Of a DNA stretch of 64,000 bases, positions 18,462-33,550 are shown one piece after another. Positions within the stretch are counted from its first letter, which is position 1, and each line of letters opens with the position of its first letter. The DNA is from an uncultured Sutterella sp. (GTDB taxonomy: Bacteria > Pseudomonadota > Gammaproteobacteria > Burkholderiales > Burkholderiaceae_F): positions 62,001 to 126,000 of the forward strand of contig CASDQM010000047.1 in the NCBI GenBank assembly GCA_949282745.1. The letters run 5' to 3'. The position numbers and the translations under genes were made by a program. The notes beneath the pieces were generated by a model. That model was not told the origin of the DNA and ran no database searches. It saw only the letters and a list, made by a program, of their open reading frames with translations.

Positions 18462-18536
18462 GCGCGGTTAGCTCAGTGGTAGAGCACTGCCTTCACACGG
18501 CAGGGGTCACTGGTTCGAAACCAGTATCGCGCACCA
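18462..18536 (+). tRNA. tRNA-Val (anticodon CAC)
   Basis: 75 nt including encoded CCA. The acceptor stem GCGCGGT pairs with ATCGCGC (one G-U). The D arm is TTAGCTCAGTGGTAGAGC. The anticodon stem CTGCC/GGCAG encloses the loop TTCACAC, giving anticodon CAC. The T arm ACTGG/CCAGT has loop TTCGAAA. It has its own promoter and terminator. Confidence 0.95.
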
Positions 18537-18544
18537 GAATTCCG

Positions 18545-18576
18545 AGGCGCAGAAGAGGCATCTTCTGCGCCTTTTT
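18545..18576 (+). terminator. Rho-independent terminator after tRNA-Val
   Basis: A perfect 12-bp stem (AGGCGCAGAAGA with TCTTCTGCGCCT), a 4-nt loop GGCA, then a T tract. It starts 8 bp after the tRNA and separates it from the licD-like operon. Confidence 0.9.
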
Positions 18577-18592
18577 GCTTGCGGGGTCCGCC

Positions 18593-19327
18593 ATGCAACT
18601 TGAACTCACCGACGACGAGCGCCGGCGCTATCACGAAAAACTCCGTGACCTTCTTTTTGCCTTCGATGATTTCTGCGAGGCCCACGGAATCGAGTACATG
18701 CTCTCCTTCGGAACGCTCCTCGGCGCCGTGCGGCACCACGGGTTCATTCCCTGGGACGACGACATTGACCTCATGCTCACGCGTCCCAATTTCGAAAAGC
18801 TCTGCGCCCTGCAGTCGGAATTGCCGCCGTATCTGAAGCTCGATCTCGGACGCATCCTCAAACTCCGAGACGACCGCTACCACTACGTTCGCGGCCAGGA
18901 CATGACGAAGTGGCAACCCATTTTTCTCGACCTCTTTGTGTTGCGTGAGACCGGTCCTGAATCGGAAACGCTGTTGCAGCTCAAAAAGTGGATCGACAGC
19001 CGTCACCGCTACCCCGCCTGGCACCCCTACAAGCTCCTTTTGAGTCTTTTGAAGTATCCCTGCCGCCCCATCCGCAATTACCTTCGCAACAAGGCGGACC
19101 ATGCCGCGCATTTCACGCGTCTGCGATACGAATCCAAGTACTATCAGGACAACAGCTTTCCGATCGACGGAATGCTGCCGGTCACGAGGACTCTTGATTT
19201 TTGCGGACGCAAGATGCCCGGGCCCCGTGTTCCCGACGTCTACCTCAAGGTAGAATACGGCAACGACTACATGACTCCGCTGCCGCCCGAAGACCGCCGT
19301 TTTCGCGTGCAGTACATCGACTTCTAA
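18593..19327 (+). CDS. LicD family phospho-headgroup transferase
   Basis: 244 aa from the ATG at 18593; the frame upstream runs through the tRNA. The LicD nucleotidyltransferase-type core is at residues 40-60 (GTLLGAVRHHGFIPWDDDIDL, with the aspartate cluster), followed by TWK-like and YxxPxDR-type regions. LicD proteins transfer phosphocholine or related phospho-alcohols from CDP-activated donors onto LPS, teichoic acid or glycans. It is followed 12 bp later by a cytidylyltransferase and then by a 2-aminoethylphosphonate-type importer, all on one strand with no terminator between. This suggests a dedicated headgroup import, activation and transfer pathway. The donor is not known. Confidence 0.85.
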   Translation: MQLELTDDERRRYHEKLRDLLFAFDDFCEAHGIEYMLSFGTLLGAVRHHGFIPWDDDIDLMLTRPNFEKLCALQSELPPYLKLDLGRILKLRDDRYHYVRGQDMTKWQPIFLDLFVLRETGPESETLLQLKKWIDSRHRYPAWHPYKLLLSLLKYPCRPIRNYLRNKADHAAHFTRLRYESKYYQDNSFPIDGMLPVTRTLDFCGRKMPGPRVPDVYLKVEYGNDYMTPLPPEDRRFRVQYIDF

Positions 19328-19339
19328 AAGGATCTCAAC

Positions 19340-19819
19340 ATGGACAAACCATTGCGCGTCATGGTCGACATGTCGGCCACGCTCCTCCACCACGGTCACA
19401 TCCGCCTTTTGAAGAAGGCGCACGAGATCGGGCAAGTCGTCGTGGCGCTCACCACGGACGAAGAAATCGAGAAGAAGAAGGGCTACGTTCCCGAACTCAA
19501 CTTCGAAGAGCGCAAGGAAATCCTCGAGGCGATCCGCTACGTGGACGAAGTCGTTCCCTGCCCCTGGCTCATCGACGACGCCTTCGTCGTAGCGCACAAC
19601 TGCGATCTGCTCGTGCACGGCAATGACAATTCGAACCACATTCCGGAAGAAAAACTCGTCATTTTCCCGCGCACGGAAGGGATCAGCTCGTCCATTCTTC
19701 GCGAACGCGTGCTCGACTGCCTCATTTCGCTCAATCTCAAGAACAAGTCGACAAGCACGTCTGACAAGATCGCGCGCCTTCTCATCGAAACGATCAAGAA
19801 AGAGTTCAAGCTCGAGTAA
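19340..19819 (+). CDS. Cytidylyltransferase-like protein (TagD/ECT type)
   Basis: 159 aa nucleotidyltransferase of the HxGH superfamily: HHGH at residues 17-20, HGND near residue 93 and RTEGISSSILRERV near residue 111 (the RTxGISTT motif). Relatives such as TagD (glycerol-3-phosphate) and ethanolamine-phosphate cytidylyltransferase make CDP-alcohols. AAAGGATCTCAAC precedes the ATG. Its stop TAA shares a base with the ATG of the next gene (TAATG), so it is coupled to the importer-binding-protein gene. Most likely it makes the CDP-activated donor for the upstream LicD protein; the substrate is inferred only from context. Confidence 0.82.
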   Translation: MDKPLRVMVDMSATLLHHGHIRLLKKAHEIGQVVVALTTDEEIEKKKGYVPELNFEERKEILEAIRYVDEVVPCPWLIDDAFVVAHNCDLLVHGNDNSNHIPEEKLVIFPRTEGISSSILRERVLDCLISLNLKNKSTSTSDKIARLLIETIKKEFKLE

Positions 19820-20820
19820 TGCGTCGTTTCTCCTCTCTTCACCGGACTGTACTCGCGGCGGTTCTTGCCACGGTTTTCCTTTCGGCCCCTCTCGGGGCCG
19901 AAACCCTACGGGTCTATACGGCTTCGCAGCCCGAGCTCCTGACGCTCTACAAAGAAGCCTTTGAAGCCCGCCACCCCGACATCGAAATCACGTTCCTGCG
20001 GGATTCCGCGTCCCCCATCGTCGCGCGTCTTCTTGCGGAGCGAAACGCTCCGCAGGCCGATGTTGTGCACGCGATTTCCGTGATCGGCATCGAAACGCTC
20101 GCCGCCGAAGGCGCCCTCACGCCGTACCGACCGAAAGACGCCGAGGTGCTCGATTCCCGCTTCCTCTCCAAGGATTCGATGTGGGTCGGCATCAACGCCT
20201 GGGGAAGCGCCATCTGTTTGAACGAAGAGCTTTTGGAGCGGCAAAATCTTCCCGTTCCGAAGCATTGGACCGACCTCACCGATCCCGTTTACCGAGGGAA
20301 AATCGCCATGCCTCACCCCGTCTCGTCAAGCACGGGCTACATGATTCTTCTGGGCTGGCTCGAACTCTTCGGTGAAGAAAAGACCTGGGCGTTTGTCAAG
20401 GCGCTTCACGAGAACATGCTCTTTTACACGTTCTCGGGATCGCGCCCGGTCTCCATGGTGGCGCAGGGAGAAATTGCGATCGGGTTGAGCTCCAACGCTT
20501 TTACGAAGCCCTATCGCAACCCGAAGATTCCCCTCAAGGTCGTCGAACCGGAAGAGGGCATCGGTTGGGACGCCGAAGGTAGCGCCTTGGTCGCCGGCAC
20601 GAAACACCCTGAAGCCGCCAAGGCCTTCCTCGACTTTTGCGCGGGCGAAGAAGTCGCCCGCATTGCGGCCGACTTCAGCGGCATCGCCGCCCGCGAGGAC
20701 TTCTCCACGCAGGAGGGTCAAAAGACGCTCGAGCACATGATTCCGATGAACTTCCAAAACGCCGCCCTGCGTAAAAACGAAATTCTCCAGAAGTGGCAGG
20801 AAGTGGTGGGCGAACGATAA
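19819..20820 (+). CDS. phnS: ABC transporter substrate-binding protein (2-aminoethylphosphonate type)
   Basis: 333 aa with a Sec signal peptide (about residues 1-27, ending PLGA). The mature part (ETLRVYTASQPELLTLYKEAFE) and the motif PHPVSSSTGYMILLGWLELFGEEKTW match the type-2 periplasmic binding proteins annotated as putative 2-aminoethylphosphonate binders, in the same superfamily as Fe(III) and polyamine binders. The ligand is therefore inferred. It starts inside the cytidylyltransferase stop codon and is followed 10 bp later by the ATPase gene. Confidence 0.8.
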   Translation: MRRFSSLHRTVLAAVLATVFLSAPLGAETLRVYTASQPELLTLYKEAFEARHPDIEITFLRDSASPIVARLLAERNAPQADVVHAISVIGIETLAAEGALTPYRPKDAEVLDSRFLSKDSMWVGINAWGSAICLNEELLERQNLPVPKHWTDLTDPVYRGKIAMPHPVSSSTGYMILLGWLELFGEEKTWAFVKALHENMLFYTFSGSRPVSMVAQGEIAIGLSSNAFTKPYRNPKIPLKVVEPEEGIGWDAEGSALVAGTKHPEAAKAFLDFCAGEEVARIAADFSGIAAREDFSTQEGQKTLEHMIPMNFQNAALRKNEILQKWQEVVGER

Positions 20821-20830
20821 GGACACGATC

Positions 20831-21841
20831 ATGAGTCACACGCTTCATCTTCGAGACCTCACGAAACGCTTCGGTTCGACCGTGGCGTTGCACCCGCTCA
20901 CGCTCTCCTTCCCGGGCGGACGCTTTACGAGCCTTCTCGGACCTTCGGGCTGCGGGAAGTCCACGCTCCTGCGCCTCATCACGGGGCTCGAACGTCCGAG
21001 CGGCGGTCGGATTTTCGTGGACGACTCGGAAATCACCGACATTCCGCCCGTTCGCCGCAAGATAGGCATGGTGTTTCAGCAGTACGCCCTCTTTCCGAAC
21101 CTTACGGTGGCCGAGAACGTTCTCTACGGTCTCCATGGGAAAGACGCGTCCGGTGCTACCCTGTGGCCGACTGACGCCCGCCAAGAGCGCATGCGCGAAA
21201 TGCTCGCGCTCGTGGGACTCGAAGCTTTTGCCGAACGCCGTCCTCATGAACTCTCGGGCGGTCAACAGCAACGCGTCGCCATCGCCCGCGCCCTCGCGCC
21301 CAATCCGAGCATCCTGCTTCTCGACGAACCGCTCTCGGCACTTGATGCCTGGAGCCGCACGGCGATCGGCGAGGAATTGCGGGAGATTCAGCGTAAAAGC
21401 GGCGTTACGACGCTCATGGTCACGCACGACCGTACGGAAGCGTTGACGCTCTCCGATTACGTGGCCGTTCTTCATGAGGGCAAGCTTGAAGACTTCGGCA
21501 CGCCCGACGAACTCTACGAACACCCGAAGAGCGCTTTCTCGGCCACGTTTGTGGGCGACATGAATCTTTTGACGCTCCCCGACTCTGACGGCACCGTCGG
21601 CATCCGCTACGCGGACGTAAAACTCAGCGAACCTACGGAACAGACGATCGCCGCGCCCGAGAGCTTCGTCGGCAAGGTGCAGCGCCTCGAATTTCGAGGC
21701 GACATGCTGCGCGCACACGTGCTGTTGAACGACTTCAAAACCAGCGTTACGGCGGACGTCGTGCGGGTGGAGCATCCCTGGCTTCGTGAGGGTGCGTTAC
21801 TCGTCGTGCGGCTCCCCAAGGCAAGGTGGTGCCGATGGTGA
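20831..21841 (+). CDS. phnT: ABC transporter ATP-binding protein (2-aminoethylphosphonate type)
   Basis: 336 aa. Walker A LLGPSGCGKSTLLRL, Q-loop VFQQYALFPNLTV, signature LSGGQQQRVAIARALAPN, Walker B ILLLDEPLSAL and the H-loop VTHDRTEAL are all intact, with a C-terminal regulatory beta domain of the TOBE type. It resembles the ATPases of putative 2-aminoethylphosphonate and polyamine importers. AAGGACACGATC lies before the ATG. Its stop TGA shares a base with the next ATG at 21841 (TGATG). Confidence 0.85.
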   Translation: MSHTLHLRDLTKRFGSTVALHPLTLSFPGGRFTSLLGPSGCGKSTLLRLITGLERPSGGRIFVDDSEITDIPPVRRKIGMVFQQYALFPNLTVAENVLYGLHGKDASGATLWPTDARQERMREMLALVGLEAFAERRPHELSGGQQQRVAIARALAPNPSILLLDEPLSALDAWSRTAIGEELREIQRKSGVTTLMVTHDRTEALTLSDYVAVLHEGKLEDFGTPDELYEHPKSAFSATFVGDMNLLTLPDSDGTVGIRYADVKLSEPTEQTIAAPESFVGKVQRLEFRGDMLRAHVLLNDFKTSVTADVVRVEHPWLREGALLVVRLPKARWCRW

Positions 21842-23400
21842 TGCGCCCCCTCCTTTTCCTTCTCACGATTCCGCTTGCCGTCGGGATTCTCTTCCCGTTG
21901 GGTGCGTTGGTGGGAGAAGCCTTTTCCGGAACGACGGCCGCCGGAGACGTCCTCGGGATGCTTCTGTCTCCCCCGATGTTGCGCGCCGTCGGCAATACGC
22001 TCTGGGTGGGGGGCCTCGCGGCGCTCTTGAGCACGGTTTTGGGCGGCATTCTCGCCTACACCATGACGATGACGAAGGCCCCGGGTCGTAAAGCGCTCGG
22101 ATGGCTTTTCATGGCCCCGCTTCTGGCACCCTCCTTCATGCCCGCCATGGGGCTCGTCTATCTCTTCGGCAACTACGGACTTCTTTTTCCAACGCAACTC
22201 TACGGTGTTCCCGGGCTGTTGGCGGGCAGCGTACTTTTTACGTTGCCGCATACGACCCTGCAGTTGTCGCTCGCTTTCCGCACGCTCGACCAACGGCTTC
22301 TCGACGCGGCGCTTTTGCTCGGAAGCGGCACGGGACGGCGCTTTTGCACCGTCCTTTTGCCGCACCTGCGCGACGCCGTCGTGAACGCCCTTCTAATCGC
22401 CTTCGTTCTCACCGTCACGGACTTCGGCGTGCCGAAACTTTTGGGCGGCAACGTTCCGATGTTGGCGACCGAAATCTACAAGTACGCGATCGGTCTCGCG
22501 GACTTTCAGCGTGCGGCCCTGCTGAGCTTCTGGCTTATGGTTCCGTCGCTTCTCGCCTTCGGTGCCTACACGCTTCTCTCGCGCCGCAAAGAGGAGCGCG
22601 GCACGCCGCAGGCCCTGAGAGTTGAACCGAACTTCGGACGTGACGCTTTCTTCGGGGGACTCTCCTGGTTCATTGTGGCGGGCATGCTCGCTTCGATCGG
22701 CGCCGTCGTGCTTGCTTCCTTCGTTCAGGCCTGGCCCTACGACCGCACGTGGACGCTTGAGGCCTATTCCCTGACGTCGCTTTCCTACGGCATCGCGCCC
22801 GTCGTCAACAGTCTGGGTCTCGCCTTCTCAACGGCTCTCGCAGGTGTCCTTCTCGCCTGGGTAACGAGCGTTCTCATGACTCGGCACAAGGAGGCGGTGC
22901 GCCCCGTCGGCGCCCTCTTTCATGCGGCGGCACTGCTTCCCATGGCTGTTCCGGGCACGATTCTGGGCTTGGGATTTGCCATGAGTTTGAGCGGTTGGGA
23001 GATTTTCTCGGGCGTGTGGGGAAATCGACTTCTCGTCCTCTTCAACACGCTTGTACACCTCTTTACAGTCGGATACCTGACGCTTAGCACGAGCCTCAAG
23101 ACGCTCCCCGGCACGTATGAGGCGGCGGGGCTTCTCTTGGGGCGCGGCTACGCCTACACGACGCTCAGAGTGCTCACGCCGCTCTGCGGGCGGCCGCTCA
23201 AGGAAACGTTCGCGTATTTCTTCTCGAACGCCCTCACCACGATTTCAGCTCTGGTGTTCCTCTACAGCCCCGAAACGATCACGGGGGCCGTAGCGGCCCT
23301 TCAAAGCCTTGACGCCGGATATCTCGCAAGCGGCGCCGCCATGGCGACGATCATCTTTGCGGTGAACGTCGCCTTCCGGGGACTCTTCATTCGTAACTGA
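21841..23400 (+). CDS. phnU: ABC transporter permease, fused two-domain (2-aminoethylphosphonate type)
   Basis: About 519 aa with two permease domains in one chain, each with about six transmembrane helices and an EAA-type loop (EAA-like segments LLDAALLLGSGTGRRFCTVLLPHL and TYEAAGLLLGRGYAYTTLRVLTPL). Such fused permeases occur in Fe(III) and putative 2-aminoethylphosphonate importers. Start choices are ATG at 21841 (TGATG overlap with the ATPase stop), ATG at 21835 or GTG at 21826. Its last 14 bp overlap tail-to-tail with the minus-strand kinase-like gene. Confidence 0.82.
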   Translation: MRPLLFLLTIPLAVGILFPLGALVGEAFSGTTAAGDVLGMLLSPPMLRAVGNTLWVGGLAALLSTVLGGILAYTMTMTKAPGRKALGWLFMAPLLAPSFMPAMGLVYLFGNYGLLFPTQLYGVPGLLAGSVLFTLPHTTLQLSLAFRTLDQRLLDAALLLGSGTGRRFCTVLLPHLRDAVVNALLIAFVLTVTDFGVPKLLGGNVPMLATEIYKYAIGLADFQRAALLSFWLMVPSLLAFGAYTLLSRRKEERGTPQALRVEPNFGRDAFFGGLSWFIVAGMLASIGAVVLASFVQAWPYDRTWTLEAYSLTSLSYGIAPVVNSLGLAFSTALAGVLLAWVTSVLMTRHKEAVRPVGALFHAAALLPMAVPGTILGLGFAMSLSGWEIFSGVWGNRLLVLFNTLVHLFTVGYLTLSTSLKTLPGTYEAAGLLLGRGYAYTTLRVLTPLCGRPLKETFAYFFSNALTTISALVFLYSPETITGAVAALQSLDAGYLASGAAMATIIFAVNVAFRGLFIRN

Positions 23401-24058
23401 TCGTCCGGCCCGTTGCGCGCTGATAGCGGCGGGCGAACTTCGCCCACTGGCGGTTGATCTTGAGGTTGCGGAACCACGGAATGTACTTCGCGGTCGGAAT
23501 GTGTTCCGGAATGTAGTAGCCGTCGAAGATCACGGGACGCAACACTCCCTTTTCCTCGACGATGAACATGTTGGAAGTTCCGATGTCGCTCACCACGACG
23601 CCCTTTTCGTGCATCTCGCGCTTCGTCGCGCGCAGGCCGTCCTCGAGGCGCTTCCATACCGACTCGTCTGCATCCTTGATTTCGTGTAGATAGTCGGCGA
23701 GCAACGAAACCTTTCGCTCTTCATTCGGGAGGATGGCCTCCACCGCGAGTCCCACGTAGGATGGAGACGAGAGAGAGCCGAGAAACTTCGGCATAAAGCT
23801 CGCCGTCACGCCCTTTTTGCGCAGGTAATTGAGGTAGTCGACCTCGCGCACGGTCTGCGGACAGCAAAAGCGCGCGCTCAGCTTCACGCAGCCCTCGGGA
23901 AAAAGGGGTGAAAAGCAGGTGAGGCGTTCGCCGCCTTTGCCGATCAACTCCCAACTGTCGACGTCGGCGTCCTCAAAATGAACGGAGCGACCGTCCAGGT
24001 CGCCCCGATAGACCGGATGAATTTTGGGAAATTCCGCCAGAATTTCACTGTTTTTCAT
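23387..24058 (-). CDS. YrbL-like (PhoP regulatory network) kinase-fold protein
   Basis: 223 aa. It resembles the YrbL family, a small protein-kinase-like fold. Candidate kinase residues all look present: Lys59 in GCVKLS, Glu72 in REVDYL, the catalytic loop SDIGTSNMF (Asp158, Asn163) and the metal-binding Asp179 in VIFDGY. The function of YrbL is poorly defined. It lies directly downstream of fur, overlapping it by 14 bp on the same strand, so it may be iron-regulated. It converges on and overlaps the end of the LicD/importer operon. A small-molecule kinase role is possible but unsupported beyond the motifs. Confidence 0.65.
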
Positions 24059-24518
24059 TCTTCGACTCTTCTTCTTTGCGGCACTCTTCGCAGATGCCGT
24101 AGAGGATCAGAGAGTGGTCGCACAGGTCATAACCGTACTTCTTCGCAACGTTTCGCTGCATGCGTTCAATGTCGACGTCCACGAACTCTTCGACGCGTCC
24201 GCAACGCATGCAGACGATGTGGTCGTGATGCTGACCTTCTGCGAGTTCGTAGGTGGCGCGGCCCGAATCGAAATGATGCCGCACCAGAATGCCCGCCGTT
24301 TCAAACTGCGTCAGAACGCGATAGACCGTCGCCAATCCGATGTCGCTTTTCTCTTCCACCAGCATGCGGTAGACGTCTTCGGCAGAGAGATGACGGACCA
24401 CACCCTCACCCTGTTCGGAGATTCGCTGGAAGAGTTCCAAAATCTTCATGCGGGGACCCGTGGCCTTCAAACCGACCGTTTTGAGTTCCGCGGATTGGTT
24501 TCGAGACGTTTCGTTCAC
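24045..24518 (-). CDS. fur: Ferric uptake regulator Fur
   Basis: 157 aa with a GTG start (24518-24516) behind a GGGAGCAAAAG ribosome-binding site. The winged helix has the recognition region [21 protein letters not shown]; the metal sites include the [16 protein letters not shown] motif and a second CEEC pair. The fur/bamE divergent arrangement is typical of Betaproteobacteria. A perfect palindrome in the divergent promoter region (24538-24559) is a candidate autoregulatory site. Confidence 0.95.
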
Positions 24519-28730: not shown

Positions 28731-29498
28731 TCACATATCGTTAAAAGTACCGTCCTTCATCTGATAAGGTTCGCCAATTCTCTTTTCATACGAAATACAG
28801 ATCTGACGCCACCAGCGAAGGGGATTCAATTGATGCCGCCAGGGGCGCTTGAAGCGCTTCGACTTGCGAAGACCAATGTCAGAGGGTGCACACACCGTGC
28901 GCACGAGTTGCGGGTCGAGTCGATAGACCTTGTGCGTACGCACAAAATCGAACCACGCAGAAAAGATCATGTAATCGACCGGGCAATTGAAGCGCTCCGT
29001 CATGGCGAGCAGATCCCGTGCAGCGGGCACAGAAAGGATGTAGCAGGCCAAGTTGAAGGGAGTCGGGCGGACCTGCCGGAAAATCGTCCCGACGCCGGGA
29101 ATCGGACGAATGTCCCGAGCCTTCACCGAAAGACCGCCGCTTCCCACCTTGAGGCAATCGACTTCATCGGGAATCCAATCCTCACGAGAGAAGACGTCAG
29201 CGAATTCCTTCGAAAGGCGAGCATCATCCTCGAGAATCATGCCCCATTTTTCTCCGGACGCCAAAAACGCCTCCCAAGCTTTGCGGTGACTCAGAAAACA
29301 CCCGATTTCCGAAGGCTGCAGAGGGTAGACGTAGCCGAATTCAATGGGTTTCAGCACCGCCGCCGTTTCTTCAGGCGACAGAGCCTTGCCCAGCACGCCC
29401 GAAATGCGTTCGACTTCGAGGCCGAAGGCGTCGAACTGCGACTTGATGCTGTGCCAGCGGTCAATGGAGGAATCCAGATTGATGACGCAACGAAACAT
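28731..29498 (-). CDS. Family 25 glycosyltransferase (LPS biosynthesis)
   Basis: 255 aa with the GT25 opening VINLDSSIDRWHSI, EIGCFLSHRKAWE and the acidic motif WGMILEDDARLSKEF (EDD). Relatives such as Lgt/Lex proteins add galactose or other sugars to LOS. It begins immediately after the lgt stop codon (lgt stop 29499-29501, this ATG ends at 29498), so the two are co-transcribed. Its 3' end becomes AT-rich next to the islet. Confidence 0.87.
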   Translation of the reverse strand: MFRCVINLDSSIDRWHSIKSQFDAFGLEVERISGVLGKALSPEETAAVLKPIEFGYVYPLQPSEIGCFLSHRKAWEAFLASGEKWGMILEDDARLSKEFADVFSREDWIPDEVDCLKVGSGGLSVKARDIRPIPGVGTIFRQVRPTPFNLACYILSVPAARDLLAMTERFNCPVDYMIFSAWFDFVRTHKVYRLDPQLVRTVCAPSDIGLRKSKRFKRPWRHQLNPLRWWRQICISYEKRIGEPYQMKDGTFNDM

Positions 29499-31183: not shown

Positions 31184-31884
31184 AGAAGACGTTTGACCTC
31201 TCGCTCTACCTGGTGCTCGACCCCGACCTCTGCGGTGGGGCCGAAGGAATGGTCAGTACGACCCTGGCCGCCATTCAAGGGGACGTCACCGTCGTGCAAC
31301 TGCGTGCACCCACCTGGAAGAAGCGCGCCGTTGCCGAGTGCGCGCGGGAATTGTTGCGCCTCATGCCCGCGTCCGTCCCGCTCATCATCAACGACCATGC
31401 GGACGTCGCCCGCGCGGTCGGCGCGGCGGGCGTGCACGTCGGACAAAAGGATCTCTCGCCCGAAGACTGCCGACTCATCGTCGGCCCCGACGCCGTCGTC
31501 GGGCTCTCCATCTCGAACATTGATGAACTGTCGCGCCTCATCGTTGATGAACGGTCGCGCCTCTCGTCCGATGATGATGTGTCGCGCCCCGGCGTTGATG
31601 ATGTGTCGCGCTTTTCTCCCGCGGTGGATTACATCGGGATCGGCCCCGTCTTTCCGACGGGCACCAAAAAGGATGCGGCCCCTGTCGTGGGGCTCGAGGG
31701 CCTGCGAACGCTTCTGAAGACCGCTCCCGTACCCGCCGTCGCCATTGGAGGAATCAGCGAAGTGAACGCCCGCTCCGTTTATGAAACGGGCGTCTCCGGG
31801 ATCGCCGTCGTTTCCGCCATCTGCGGAAAATCCGACCCCGAAGCGGCCGCCCGAAGCCTGCTCGCGACGCGTTCGTCCTTCTGA
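31180..31884 (+). CDS. thiE: Thiamine-phosphate synthase with repeat-encoded insertion
   Basis: 234 aa, about 20 residues longer than typical ThiE. Core motifs are present: VVQLRAPTWKKR, LIINDHADVARAVGAAGVHVGQKD, VDYIGIGPVFPTGTKKDA and VAIGGISEVNA. Between VGLSISN and VDYIGIG, residues 114-144 are a low-complexity segment with four recurring Asp/Glu-x-Ser-Arg units encoded by a 17-bp repeat family (31520-31611). This replaces the usual short helix, so activity could be altered, although the flanking catalytic motifs look intact. It joins the thiazole and pyrimidine phosphates in thiamine synthesis. Confidence 0.93.
   Translation: MKKTFDLSLYLVLDPDLCGGAEGMVSTTLAAIQGDVTVVQLRAPTWKKRAVAECARELLRLMPASVPLIINDHADVARAVGAAGVHVGQKDLSPEDCRLIVGPDAVVGLSISNIDELSRLIVDERSRLSSDDDVSRPGVDDVSRFSPAVDYIGIGPVFPTGTKKDAAPVVGLEGLRTLLKTAPVPAVAIGGISEVNARSVYETGVSGIAVVSAICGKSDPEAAARSLLATRSSF
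31520..31611 (+). repeat. Four 17-bp repeat units inside thiE
   Basis: Units at 31520-31536, 31544-31560, 31571-31587 and 31595-31611, consensus TTGATGANNNNTCGCGC, spaced 24, 27 and 24 bp start to start (all multiples of 3, so the frame is kept). The second unit is the exact reverse complement of the unit at 32090-32106 in the next gene. Confidence 0.9.
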
Positions 31885-31897
31885 GGAGAGCCTCTTC

Positions 31898-33550
31898 ATG
31901 TTCCGGTTCTTCACAACCGACCGCAACGCCTACCGAACCGCTGCGATCATTCTCCTCTCAACCCTTTTCCTTACGCTCGCAGCCTTTTCCTGGCGCAGGG
32001 CACTCCAAATCTGGGCGTTGGAGTTTCCCTTCGTTCTCCTACTGCTGCTAAGAATTTCTCCAAAACCGGCGCGAGTGTTCATCAATGACGCGCGACCGTT
32101 CATCAACAAAGCGCGAGTGTTCATCAAGGCGGTTGCGTGGATCGGCCTCACGGTCACCTTCCTCGACATCGGCGTGCGGGGCTATCTTCTTCGCACCTAC
32201 GAGACCGATCCGGGCTCGTCCTACTTGCTGGAATCCGTAGCGAATACAACCTCCTCGGAAGGGCTCGAATTCCTTCAGAACGACTGGGGCGGCATTCTCC
32301 TCTGGACCGTGCCCGTCGTTTTTCTGATTCTTCTGTCGCTTTCTCTCATCTCGAAACTGCGCGAAGGCGACCGTCAGGTGTCGCGTTGGGCGGCGGGCAC
32401 CTTGGTGGTGTTTCTTGTCGTCGTCTCCGCCGTCGCCTACAGCGTGCGGCCCTGGCGGCGCTTCTCGCCGTTTCTCTATTGGCCGGGCTGGGTTGAGGAC
32501 GTCAAGGAAGTGAAGGCGAACTGGGCGAAGACCCTCGCTTCGCGCGACGCGCTCCTCGCTCGCGGCAAGGCGCTTCTCACGAAGGCTGACGCGGGTCCGC
32601 GCACGATCGTCTGGGTGATCGGCGAGAGCGTCAATCCGAAAGCCTGGTCGCTCTACGGCTATGAACTCGACACGACGCCGGAACTGCGCAGGCTTTCCAA
32701 GACGCTTACGCCGCCCATGGAAGTCTTCGAGAACGCCTGGTCCGTGTCGTCGAGCACCGTCGCGTCGTTTGAAGACATGTTCACCTTCGCCGCGACCGAA
32801 AAGGCGCCGAAGGAAAATCTCCTTTTACCTCTCTTCCGTGCCGCGGGCTACCGCATCACCTGGATCAGCAATCAGGAAGACGTGGCGATCCGTCAGCAGT
32901 TCGCGTCGCTCGCCGACCGAAGCCTTTTCCTCAATAAGCTTGGCGGCCGCTCCTCGGTGTCGCTCGACGAAAAGGTGATCGAGCCGCTTCGCGAAGCGCT
33001 CGCGGAACCCGCGGAAAAGCACCTCGTCATCGTGCATCTCATCGGCGCGCATCCGCACTATCGTCTGCGCGCTCCGGAAGACTATCCGGAAGTCTGGACG
33101 CCCGACAACGCCGTCGAGCAGCGTCTTGAAGAAAAGGGACGGTCCTTCCTCACGATCGAAACGCGCGAGGACTACGACCGCACCATGCACTACCACGACC
33201 ACATTCTCGCGGAGACGCTCAAGATGACGGCGGCCAAGTCCGGTCCCGTCACATGGTTCTATCTGTCGGATCACGGACAGGAAATCGGCGACCTTGCCGA
33301 CCGAACGGGTCATGCGGCGAACCTTCCGAGCGGCTACCGCATTCCGGCGCTCCTCTGGGAGCGCCCGGCCGCGGACCGCAAGGCCGCGTCGGAAAACTTC
33401 CGCACCGACTGGACGGCACCCCTGTTACTCGATCTCGCGGGTATTGAATGGAAGGGCGAAGATCCGACGGACTCGATCTTGGATCCTTCCTACCACTGGG
33501 AGACGCCCGATAACGCCGTCATCCGCAAAGCCTTGGGAGATGCGTCGTGA
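31898..33550 (+). CDS. Phosphoethanolamine transferase-like inner-membrane protein
   Basis: 550 aa from the ATG at 31898 behind GAGGAG. About five transmembrane helices occupy residues 1-190, and a sulfatase-fold periplasmic domain follows with VIGESVNPKAWS, the Ser/Thr nucleophile region SVSSSTVASF, LVIVHLIGAHPHY, WFYLSDHGQEIGD and RTGHAANLPS. This is the EptA/CptA/OpgE type, which moves phosphoethanolamine from phosphatidylethanolamine to lipid A, core sugars or glucans; the acceptor is unknown. Residues 58-77, between the second and third helices, are encoded by three 17-bp repeats related to those in thiE. Its stop overlaps the next start (GTGA). Confidence 0.85.
   Translation: MFRFFTTDRNAYRTAAIILLSTLFLTLAAFSWRRALQIWALEFPFVLLLLLRISPKPARVFINDARPFINKARVFIKAVAWIGLTVTFLDIGVRGYLLRTYETDPGSSYLLESVANTTSSEGLEFLQNDWGGILLWTVPVVFLILLSLSLISKLREGDRQVSRWAAGTLVVFLVVVSAVAYSVRPWRRFSPFLYWPGWVEDVKEVKANWAKTLASRDALLARGKALLTKADAGPRTIVWVIGESVNPKAWSLYGYELDTTPELRRLSKTLTPPMEVFENAWSVSSSTVASFEDMFTFAATEKAPKENLLLPLFRAAGYRITWISNQEDVAIRQQFASLADRSLFLNKLGGRSSVSLDEKVIEPLREALAEPAEKHLVIVHLIGAHPHYRLRAPEDYPEVWTPDNAVEQRLEEKGRSFLTIETREDYDRTMHYHDHILAETLKMTAAKSGPVTWFYLSDHGQEIGDLADRTGHAANLPSGYRIPALLWERPAADRKAASENFRTDWTAPLLLDLAGIEWKGEDPTDSILDPSYHWETPDNAVIRKALGDAS
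32069..32127 (-). repeat. Three inverted 17-bp repeat units inside the phosphoethanolamine-transferase-like gene
   Basis: Units at 32069-32085, 32090-32106 and 32111-32127 (plus-strand GCGCGANNGTTCATCAA) at 21-bp spacing. They are reverse complements of the thiE units and encode ARVFIN, ARPFIN and ARVFIK in frame. Confidence 0.9.

Follow-up and report, generated by a model that had tools for sequence, protein, structure and literature searches.

The DNA considered in this work, hereafter the window, is a stretch of 64,000 nucleotides from an uncultured Sutterella sp. (contig CASDQM010000047.1, positions 62,001 to 126,000). Between positions 18593 and 23400 its plus strand carries a compact cassette of five genes, coding for a LicD-family protein, an HxGH cytidylyltransferase (CT), and the binding protein, ATPase and permease of an ATP-binding cassette (ABC) importer. 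We compare this cassette with related loci in other genomes, and consider which small molecule it may place on the cell surface. The five genes are:

18593..19327, plus strand: LicD-family phosphotransferase, 244 amino acids (PF04991, 103.6 bits, cut-off 22.6; residues 27-62 align to FKRP, 6kaj, E 3e-05); proposed transferase of a phosphonate headgroup to a glycan
19340..19819, plus strand: HxGH cytidylyltransferase of a phosphonate-linked family, 159 amino acids (PF01467, 54 bits, cut-off 21); proposed maker of a cytidine monophosphate (CMP)-phosphonate
19819..20820, plus strand: periplasmic binding protein of the AepX/PhnS2 type, 333 amino acids (TIGR03261, 301.4 bits, below the cut-off of 392.75)
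20831..21841, plus strand: ABC importer ATPase, 336 amino acids (PF00005, 135.6 bits, cut-off 25; PhnT2, 333.1 bits, below the cut-off of 457.7)
21841..23400, plus strand: fused two-domain ABC permease, about 519 amino acids (PF00528, 52.7 bits, cut-off 26.4; PhnU2, 390.5 bits, below the cut-off of 593.25)

The initial annotation had read these as one plus-strand operon with gaps of 12 bp or less and two stop/start overlaps, and the gene coordinates and junctions agree. LicD and the CT are 12 bp apart, the binding protein and the ATPase 10 bp, while the CT runs into the binding protein through TAATG (19817-19821) and the ATPase into the permease through TGATG (21839-21843). For the importer genes the top NCBIfam models are phnS2, PhnT2 and PhnU2, the putative 2-aminoethylphosphonate (AEP) set, all below their equivalog cut-offs. 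The second-best model of the binding protein reaches 89.0 bits, compared with 301.4 for phnS2; the protein also matches SBP_bac_6 among other Pfam families.

For the CT we built a profile from nine orthologues, ran it against a one-genome-per-species collection, and analysed the best 80 of 129 loci; gene calls at these loci are mechanical and miss some CT frames, and CT positions were taken from tblastn. In the fetched DNA, a phosphoenolpyruvate (PEP) mutase with the EDKx5NS motif accompanies the CT at 44 of the 80 loci and an AepX-type importer at 13, and no locus has both. At ten loci the CT shares a reading frame with a PhnW-like AEP transaminase, six of these domains being 32-33% identical to PhnW and four weak (23-25%). 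A good example is locus L126, where the fused domain passes the AEP aminotransferase model TIGR03301 (387.2 bits, cut-off 360.8), the gene two upstream passes the PEP mutase model (430.4 bits, cut-off 319.55), and the gene between them matches phosphonopyruvate decarboxylase below the cut-off (180.6 of 312.5). In whole-genome searches TIGR03301 was passed at the fusion sites of both L126 and L133 (genomes G080 and G081), the latter with 408.1 bits. At another locus, L136, a gene of about 330 amino acids precedes the CT; it has no Pfam match, and its match to the AEP aminotransferase model is weak (65.3 bits, cut-off 360.8). Importer-linked, PEP-mutase-linked and fused CTs share 19 invariant columns in an alignment of 31 rows, including His17, Gly19, His20, Arg111, Thr112 and Ser117. 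Judged by the company it keeps, then, the CT is a member of a rare family that goes with PEP mutase and AEP transaminase, and both the family context and the transaminase fusions point to a phosphonate-specific CT as its predicted activity. The family appears rare because, among 398 genomes drawn from the phylum, the profile matched only the window's own genome at 1e-25; in plasmids there was no CT match at 1e-15. A separate observation is that L126, L129, L136, L170 and others have two CT-like domains per cluster, one borne by the PEP mutase and one on its own.

A second source of evidence is the importer. The initial annotation had looked to recurrence of the gene order elsewhere, and this is partly what we find. 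The core, i.e. CT, binding protein, ATPase and permease in this order on one strand, is kept in 13 of the 13 importer loci of other records, labelled Sutterella, Parasutterella, Duodenibacillus, Mailhella, Deltaproteobacteria, Photobacterium, Shewanella marina, Ignatzschineria and Planctomycetota. LicD is not kept with it: within the DNA examined around the loci, the five-gene order is found only in the window genome and in its congener G060 (locus L106), that is, in one of the 13 other loci and two of the 14 in all. Within the window's family, importer orthologues above 50% identity occur in six of 67 genomes, and all six adjoin the CT. The family holds 15 further matches at 36-43% identity, of which 12 were aligned (G032 and G029 are not included, and the G010 frame is merged with its neighbour). 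PhnW and/or PhnA adjoins 11 of these 12 (NCBIfam models were used to check the neighbours at L096 and, at L087, the aldehyde dehydrogenase), and the twelfth, L086, adjoins a flavin adenine dinucleotide (FAD) oxidoreductase (TIGR03364).

To these we added importers from plasmids, where AepX-like proteins occur in 138 records; eight, of 40 listed, were examined. The binding-protein tree thereby gained the importers of S. meliloti, Aminobacter, Plesiomonas and Vibrio parahaemolyticus that lie beside phnWAY or phnWX, one unannotated Vibrio importer, and three importers in DeoR contexts; it was rooted on AfuA/P5PA. In this tree the 14 CT-linked rows form a single clade (support 100/99), nested in a 31-row clade of AEP importers (98/95). 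The larger clade also contains one unannotated row and all 16 rows labelled AEP catabolism, a label that we assigned from neighbouring genes (15 beside phnW/phnA, one beside the FAD oxidoreductase). The three DeoR-context homologues and three PhnS-like rows fall outside it. The single CT-linked clade comes from this larger AfuA-rooted tree; in an earlier tree without the plasmid importers, the CT-linked proteins were several open branches beside one catabolic clade. Two CT-linked binding proteins, from Photobacterium and S. marina, pass the phnS2 cut-off (421.1 and 415.4 bits), and that of L112 does not (353.2). The likeness to AEP systems that the initial annotation had noticed is therefore well placed: the window protein sits inside the predicted AEP-importer clade and its operon has phnS2, PhnT2 and PhnU2 as top models, although below their cut-offs. 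By record, the three DeoR-context importers (L190, L191 and L192), plasmid-borne PhnS2-type systems, lie beside DeoR/GlpR regulators and an aminotransferase, a haloacid dehalogenase (HAD) hydrolase or a glycerol-3-phosphate dehydrogenase, and they probably serve another organophosphate.

Taken together, these results lead us to propose that the cassette performs a salvage type of phosphonyl tailoring, a reading to which we give a probability of roughly 60%. A phosphonate would cross the outer membrane, which is an assumption, and be captured ready-made by the binding protein; AEP is the most likely ligand. The ATPase and permease would import it, and the HxGH CT would join it to cytidine triphosphate (CTP), giving a CMP-phosphonate. 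LicD would then move the phosphonate from this donor to a glycan in the cytoplasm, and we assume that the decorated glycan is exported to the surface. Since a finished compound with a carbon-phosphorus (C-P) bond would be imported, taking the place of the whole biosynthetic module from PEP mutase onwards, no kinase would be needed. The import and activation steps are supported by the comparison, through CT family membership, the conserved CT-importer unit, the importer clade, and the separation of importer and PEP mutase at the loci examined; beyond this, we infer the precise identity of the ligand, the nature of donor and acceptor, and the reaction of LicD. A ready headgroup entering without a kinase and then being activated by CTP had been suggested in the initial annotation. 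The CT family context and the AEP-importer clade favour this idea, and make a phosphonate the most likely headgroup; in line with it, the choline kinase family (PF01633) has no match in the window's own genome, which is 92.5% complete.

Where would the phosphonate come from? PEP mutase has no match in any of the nine CT-bearing genomes of the family, the window's own included. More widely, the PEP mutase model (TIGR02320) is passed in none of 12 genomes with importer-type or TagB-type loci (nine with the importer, three with the TagB-like gene only; genome completeness not stated), in none of three genomes whose locus has CT and LicD without either source, and in five of five PEP-mutase-linked controls. 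PhnJ was not found in the window's genome either. This genome does have PhnW (446.7 bits, cut-off 360.8) and PhnX (357.8 bits, cut-off 220), encoded on another contig, C53, in a locus with the order ATPase, fused permease, binding protein, PhnW, PhnX (L212, 3578-9046). It can therefore probably degrade AEP via PhnW-PhnX. The same order is found in G060, G019, G059, G017 and G002. All 9 of the family's CT-bearing genomes have PhnW above its cut-off, against 23 of the 58 others (one-sided p 0.0007), and in the three gut genera the figures are 9 of 9 against 8 of 22 (one-sided p 0.0012), neither value being corrected for kinship; in genus g4 they are 4 of 4 against 0 of 6. Three CT-bearing genomes, G017, G019 and G059, have no CT-linked importer, and each has a PhnW-PhnX locus with its own importer, which is a possible substrate source there.

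That AEP is probably degraded in this genome gives some footing to a quite different idea, namely that the cassette importer serves catabolism or phosphate supply and lies next to the CT and LicD by chance. We consider this highly improbable, as the order of CT, binding protein, ATPase and permease is retained at all 13 loci in very different bacteria, and catabolism has an importer of its own.

The AlphaFold2 (AF2) model of the binding protein has a mean predicted local distance difference test (pLDDT) score of 91.3, and the closest solved folds are organophosphate binders. We rejected iron and hexose-phosphate import on the indirect evidence of resemblance to solved structures. By fold, AfuA, VcA0625 and P5PA are nearest, followed by PhnS STM0429, with iron binders after; by sequence profile AfuA, VcA0625 (8x1a) and P5PA again come first, several iron binders rank above PhnS 4r6y, and polyamine binders match more weakly. 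The sugar residues of AfuA, His205 and Asp206, are not retained, being Ala227 and Phe228 in the window protein, which argues against a hexose phosphate. Where AfuA and P5PA are reported to have their phosphate loops (PMC4546632, PMC8427247), the window protein keeps Ser63, Ser170, Thr172 and Ser206, and has Ala64 in place of AfuA Ser37. The AfuA ligand residue Glu229 corresponds to Asp251, preceded by Trp250. This tryptophan is present in 31 of 31 members of the AEP-importer clade and in none of eight proteins outside it, and the 251 position is Asp or Glu.

A variant of the proposal keeps the same salvage logic and changes the ligand to another phosphonate, e.g. N-methyl-AEP, 2-hydroxyethylphosphonate or 1-hydroxy-AEP. 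The loop at the AfuA His205/Asp206 site (225-228) in all 14 CT-linked proteins differs from the FEYR/FDYR of 12 AepX-type importers of the same family, so the ligand of the CT-linked importers is possibly not AEP itself. In addition, the AEP locus elsewhere in the genome already includes an importer, so a second one may differ in ligand, and a solved relative of the CT, the Fom1 cytidylyltransferase domain, was crystallised with CMP-linked 2-hydroxyethylphosphonate (HEP-CMP; 5x3d). That said, some lineages have the CT fused to an AEP transaminase, the phnS2 cut-off is exceeded by two of the CT-linked binding proteins, and AEP-catabolism importers are themselves variable in this loop: those of S. 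meliloti, Plesiomonas and Vibrio next to phnWX/phnWAY likewise depart from FEYR/FDYR. On balance we hold a different phosphonate to be unlikely.

The models of the CT can also be read in terms of ordinary phosphate headgroups. Its AF2 model (mean pLDDT 90.2) is closest to solved choline-phosphate and ethanolamine-phosphate CTs, then to the Fom1 cytidylyltransferase and TagD; the best solved relative is an ethanolamine-phosphate CT by sequence and a choline-phosphate CT by fold. The AF2 models did not discriminate between substrates. The donors of the LicD family include cytidine diphosphate (CDP)-choline, and in NCBIfam the window LicD matches a single model, that of the cholinephosphotransferase Mf1 (79.7 bits, below the cut-off of 225). 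These relationships would suit a pathway like lic1 or the Kennedy pathway, in which phosphocholine or phosphoethanolamine is imported, converted by the CT to CDP-choline or CDP-ethanolamine, and transferred by LicD. We think this improbable, given that the CT family accompanies PEP mutase and AEP transaminase, and that the importer groups with AEP importers. The failure to find a choline kinase in the genome also speaks against it, though imported phosphocholine would need none.

The transferase end of the pathway is variable. A TagB-like protein is present in eight of the 13 other importer loci, always with a YidC-like fusion protein in the locus. The TagB-like protein of L034 matches PF04464 weakly (25.8 bits, cut-off 22.1) and the copy in L036 has no match; the sulfatase/phosphodiesterase-like part of the fusion protein is below Pfam cut-offs where tested. 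LicD occurs with PEP mutase in four of 44 loci, PF04991 being confirmed for L138 and L161. TagB-like matches are strong in the PEP-mutase loci L135 (on the divergent strand) and L178 and weak in ten more of the 44, and a PF04464 protein is also found in the PEP-mutase locus L136. The LicD and TagB profiles were built in part from loci that they later matched. Our main argument for the salvage model is that the CT is the fixed middle of a pathway with exchangeable ends: synthesis or import as the source, LicD or a TagB-like protein as the sink.

Some of these observations would fit a teichoic-acid-like route, with CDP-glycerol made by the CT, glycerol-3-phosphate or a glycerophosphodiester imported, and glycerol phosphate transferred by LicD or the TagB-like protein. 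TagB-like proteins and YidC-like proteins with a sulfatase/phosphodiesterase-like part do lie beside the CT in relatives, one homologous importer lies beside a glycerol-3-phosphate dehydrogenase, and the top NCBIfam model of the CT, below its cut-off, is a glycerol-3-phosphate CT. PEP mutase in more than half of the CT loci would not be expected for glycerol-3-phosphate, the TagB-like and PF04464 proteins turn up in PEP-mutase loci as well, and the importer with the glycerol-phosphate context is outside the AEP-importer clade. We give such a route very little credence.

Several side observations concern these same genes. The YidC-like fusion proteins of L034 (11212-15380), L036 (10705-14920) and L117 (12174-16135) combine a YidC-like (60KD_IMP) domain with the sulfatase/phosphodiesterase-like part, and lie beside a TagB-like protein. 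The TagB-like proteins of L034 and L036 have YLDPGTGSM near the start, and the pair with the YidC-like fusion recurs beside the CT in distant bacteria. Two congeners without the cassette, G052 and G055 (L011 and L016), have another LicD (29-30% identity) next to a distant CT (32-34%).

Returning to salvage, we consider it slightly better than an even bet that the window represents a whole branch of phosphonate decoration, in which an AEP-type importer replaced PEP mutase ahead of a phosphonate CT. By record labels this branch would span gut and marine Pseudomonadota, Deltaproteobacteria/Desulfovibrionaceae and Planctomycetota, and its transferase end would be interchangeable between LicD and the TagB-like protein with the YidC-like fusion. 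In the CT tree, rooted on six PEP-mutase-fused domains, all 14 importer-linked CTs fall in a group of 25 rows, with a value of 93 in the Shimodaira-Hasegawa-like approximate likelihood ratio test (SH-aLRT), together with one PEP-mutase-linked row; the other 43 PEP-mutase-linked rows are outside. The simplest history of the family would be biosynthesis first and import later, on a tree that is weak.

A number of results weigh against the salvage proposal, or at least against parts of it. The tree of the CTs was built on 125 columns and 43 of its 83 inner branches are open. The best NCBIfam model of the CT, that for glycerol-3-phosphate, scores 71.8 bits of the required 165.4. At 23 of the 80 CT loci neither source is present, and five of these have TagB-like or sulfatase-like genes. 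Where family models were applied to the four weak CT-transaminase fusions, they gave no confirmation. In 38 of the 44 biosynthetic loci the PEP mutase frame itself starts with an HxGH CT-like domain, which makes the activity proposed for the separate CT less certain in those loci. On the importer side, the window binding protein falls short of the phnS2 cut-off, and two of the DeoR-context homologues outside the clade score higher on this model than it does (343.1 and 329.2 bits). The CT-linked loop differs from FEYR/FDYR, as described above. An AEP-type importer is already available to this genome on contig C53; its binding protein is only distantly related to that of the cassette (about 27-28% identity) and was left out of the tree; the clade therefore does not take in every AEP importer. 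Finally, LicD is the least conserved partner of the importer.

The genomic setting of the cassette is defined by three further features:

18462..18536, plus strand: tRNA-Val (CAC), the left border of the insert (ARAGORN)
18544..18573, plus strand: terminator-like hairpin between tRNA-Val and licD, with 13 pairs, a loop of 4 and a T-rich tail
23387..24058, minus strand: YrbL-like kinase-fold protein within the insert, convergent with the permease (PF10707, 47.7 bits, cut-off 31.5)

Eight congeners have rnhA without the CT, and six of them were examined at the junction. In four (G062, G052, G054 and G053) rnhA and tRNA-Val(CAC) are followed directly by fur. Of the remaining two, G058 has no fur match within the stretch examined, and in G061 the contig breaks off. 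In the window and in G060, whose CT is identical to that of the window, the five genes and the convergent YrbL-like gene sit between tRNA-Val and fur, an insert of about 5.5 kb. In G059, the third congener to bear the CT, this tRNA-Val is followed by the CT and a sulfatase-like gene. Cassette and window have equal G+C contents (0.598 and 0.599), so composition gives no sign of recent insertion. The terminator-like hairpin corresponds to the terminator reported upstream of licD in the initial annotation. It takes up most of the 56 bp between tRNA-Val and licD (18537-18592; the distance is the same in G060), leaving no space for a usual promoter, and a promoter scan found none. The cassette may thus be transcribed by read-through from the tRNA. 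The terminator scan that gave this hairpin returned 17 terminator-like sites in 7 kb compared with 9.0 expected, and weak sites there consequently mean little.

The YrbL-like gene overlaps the permease by 14 bp, and is missing from the junction of the four empty-site congeners. It also shares 14 bp with the 3' end of fur (23387-24518), and may be co-transcribed with it. We considered it as a missing kinase, and leave it out of the system because it is present in just one of the 80 CT loci (L106, the congener). Elsewhere in the window there are a glycosyltransferase family 25 gene (28731-29498) and a sulfatase-fold gene (31781-33550); nothing links either of them to the cassette.

If the salvage proposal is correct, it has some consequences for how surface phosphonates are studied. 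The published pathways for decorating surfaces with phosphonates that we found all start from PEP mutase, and genome surveys that rely on this enzyme alone would overlook bacteria of the present kind. C-P compounds of one gut or marine organism would end up in the surface structures of another, and surfaces would bear C-P bonds made by other organisms, e.g. from the diet, the host or neighbours. The surface chemistry of a group of gut commensals may then depend on diet or neighbours. Furthermore, the binding protein, CT and LicD are a small, expressible set of proteins, which makes the later tailoring steps directly testable.

How does the cassette compare with known systems? The initial annotation knew of no described operon of this composition, and we likewise found none, nor any account of an importer that supplies such a CT, among the open papers of PubMed Central, a scope outside which lie most subscription papers and preprints. 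The lic1 system of Haemophilus and the pneumococcus combines import of a headgroup precursor, the choline kinase LicA, activation by CTP and a LicD transferase, for phosphocholine. The cassette resembles it in having import of a small headgroup precursor, CTP activation and a LicD-family transferase in one operon. It would therefore work like lic1, as was first suggested, yet we do not regard it as a member: no LicA was found in the genome, the operon transporter is an ABC importer and not a LicB-type choline permease (LicB was searched for in the operon only), and the cargo is probably a phosphonate. The CT also belongs to another family, PF01467 being its only Pfam match at E up to 0.01, unlike LicC, which exemplifies PF12804 (PMC6697681). 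The CT domain of Fom1 and the glycerol-3-phosphate and ethanolamine-phosphate CTs share with it the HxGH PF01467 fold and, by prediction, cytidylyl transfer to a phosphonate or phosphate. The Fom1 domain is fused to PEP mutase, and the six PEP-mutase-fused domains of our tree are on a branch separate from the window CT.

For the importer, the closest described relative is AepXVW, which Murphy et al. report to be AEP-specific (AepX of Stappia) and typically beside the breakdown genes phnWX or phnWAY (PMC8316502). Both have a binding protein, ATPase and permease of the pfam13343/phnS2 kind. The cassette importer differs in being linked to a CT and LicD, and in belonging to a separate clade. For the pathway as a whole, the closest relative is the phosphonyl tailoring (Pnt) pathway of Treponema denticola, Atopobium rimae and others, in which, according to Rice et al., AEP made via PEP mutase is activated by CTP, the tested AEP CT being PntC, of family PF12804; LicD-like genes lie near such clusters, and the later tailoring steps are termed enigmatic (PMC6697681). 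The two are alike in the proposed activation of AEP by CTP for surface glycans and in their LicD-like phosphotransferases. They differ in that Pnt makes its AEP and uses a PF12804 CT, while the cassette, in a genome where no PEP mutase was found, has an importer in its place and a CT of PF01467.

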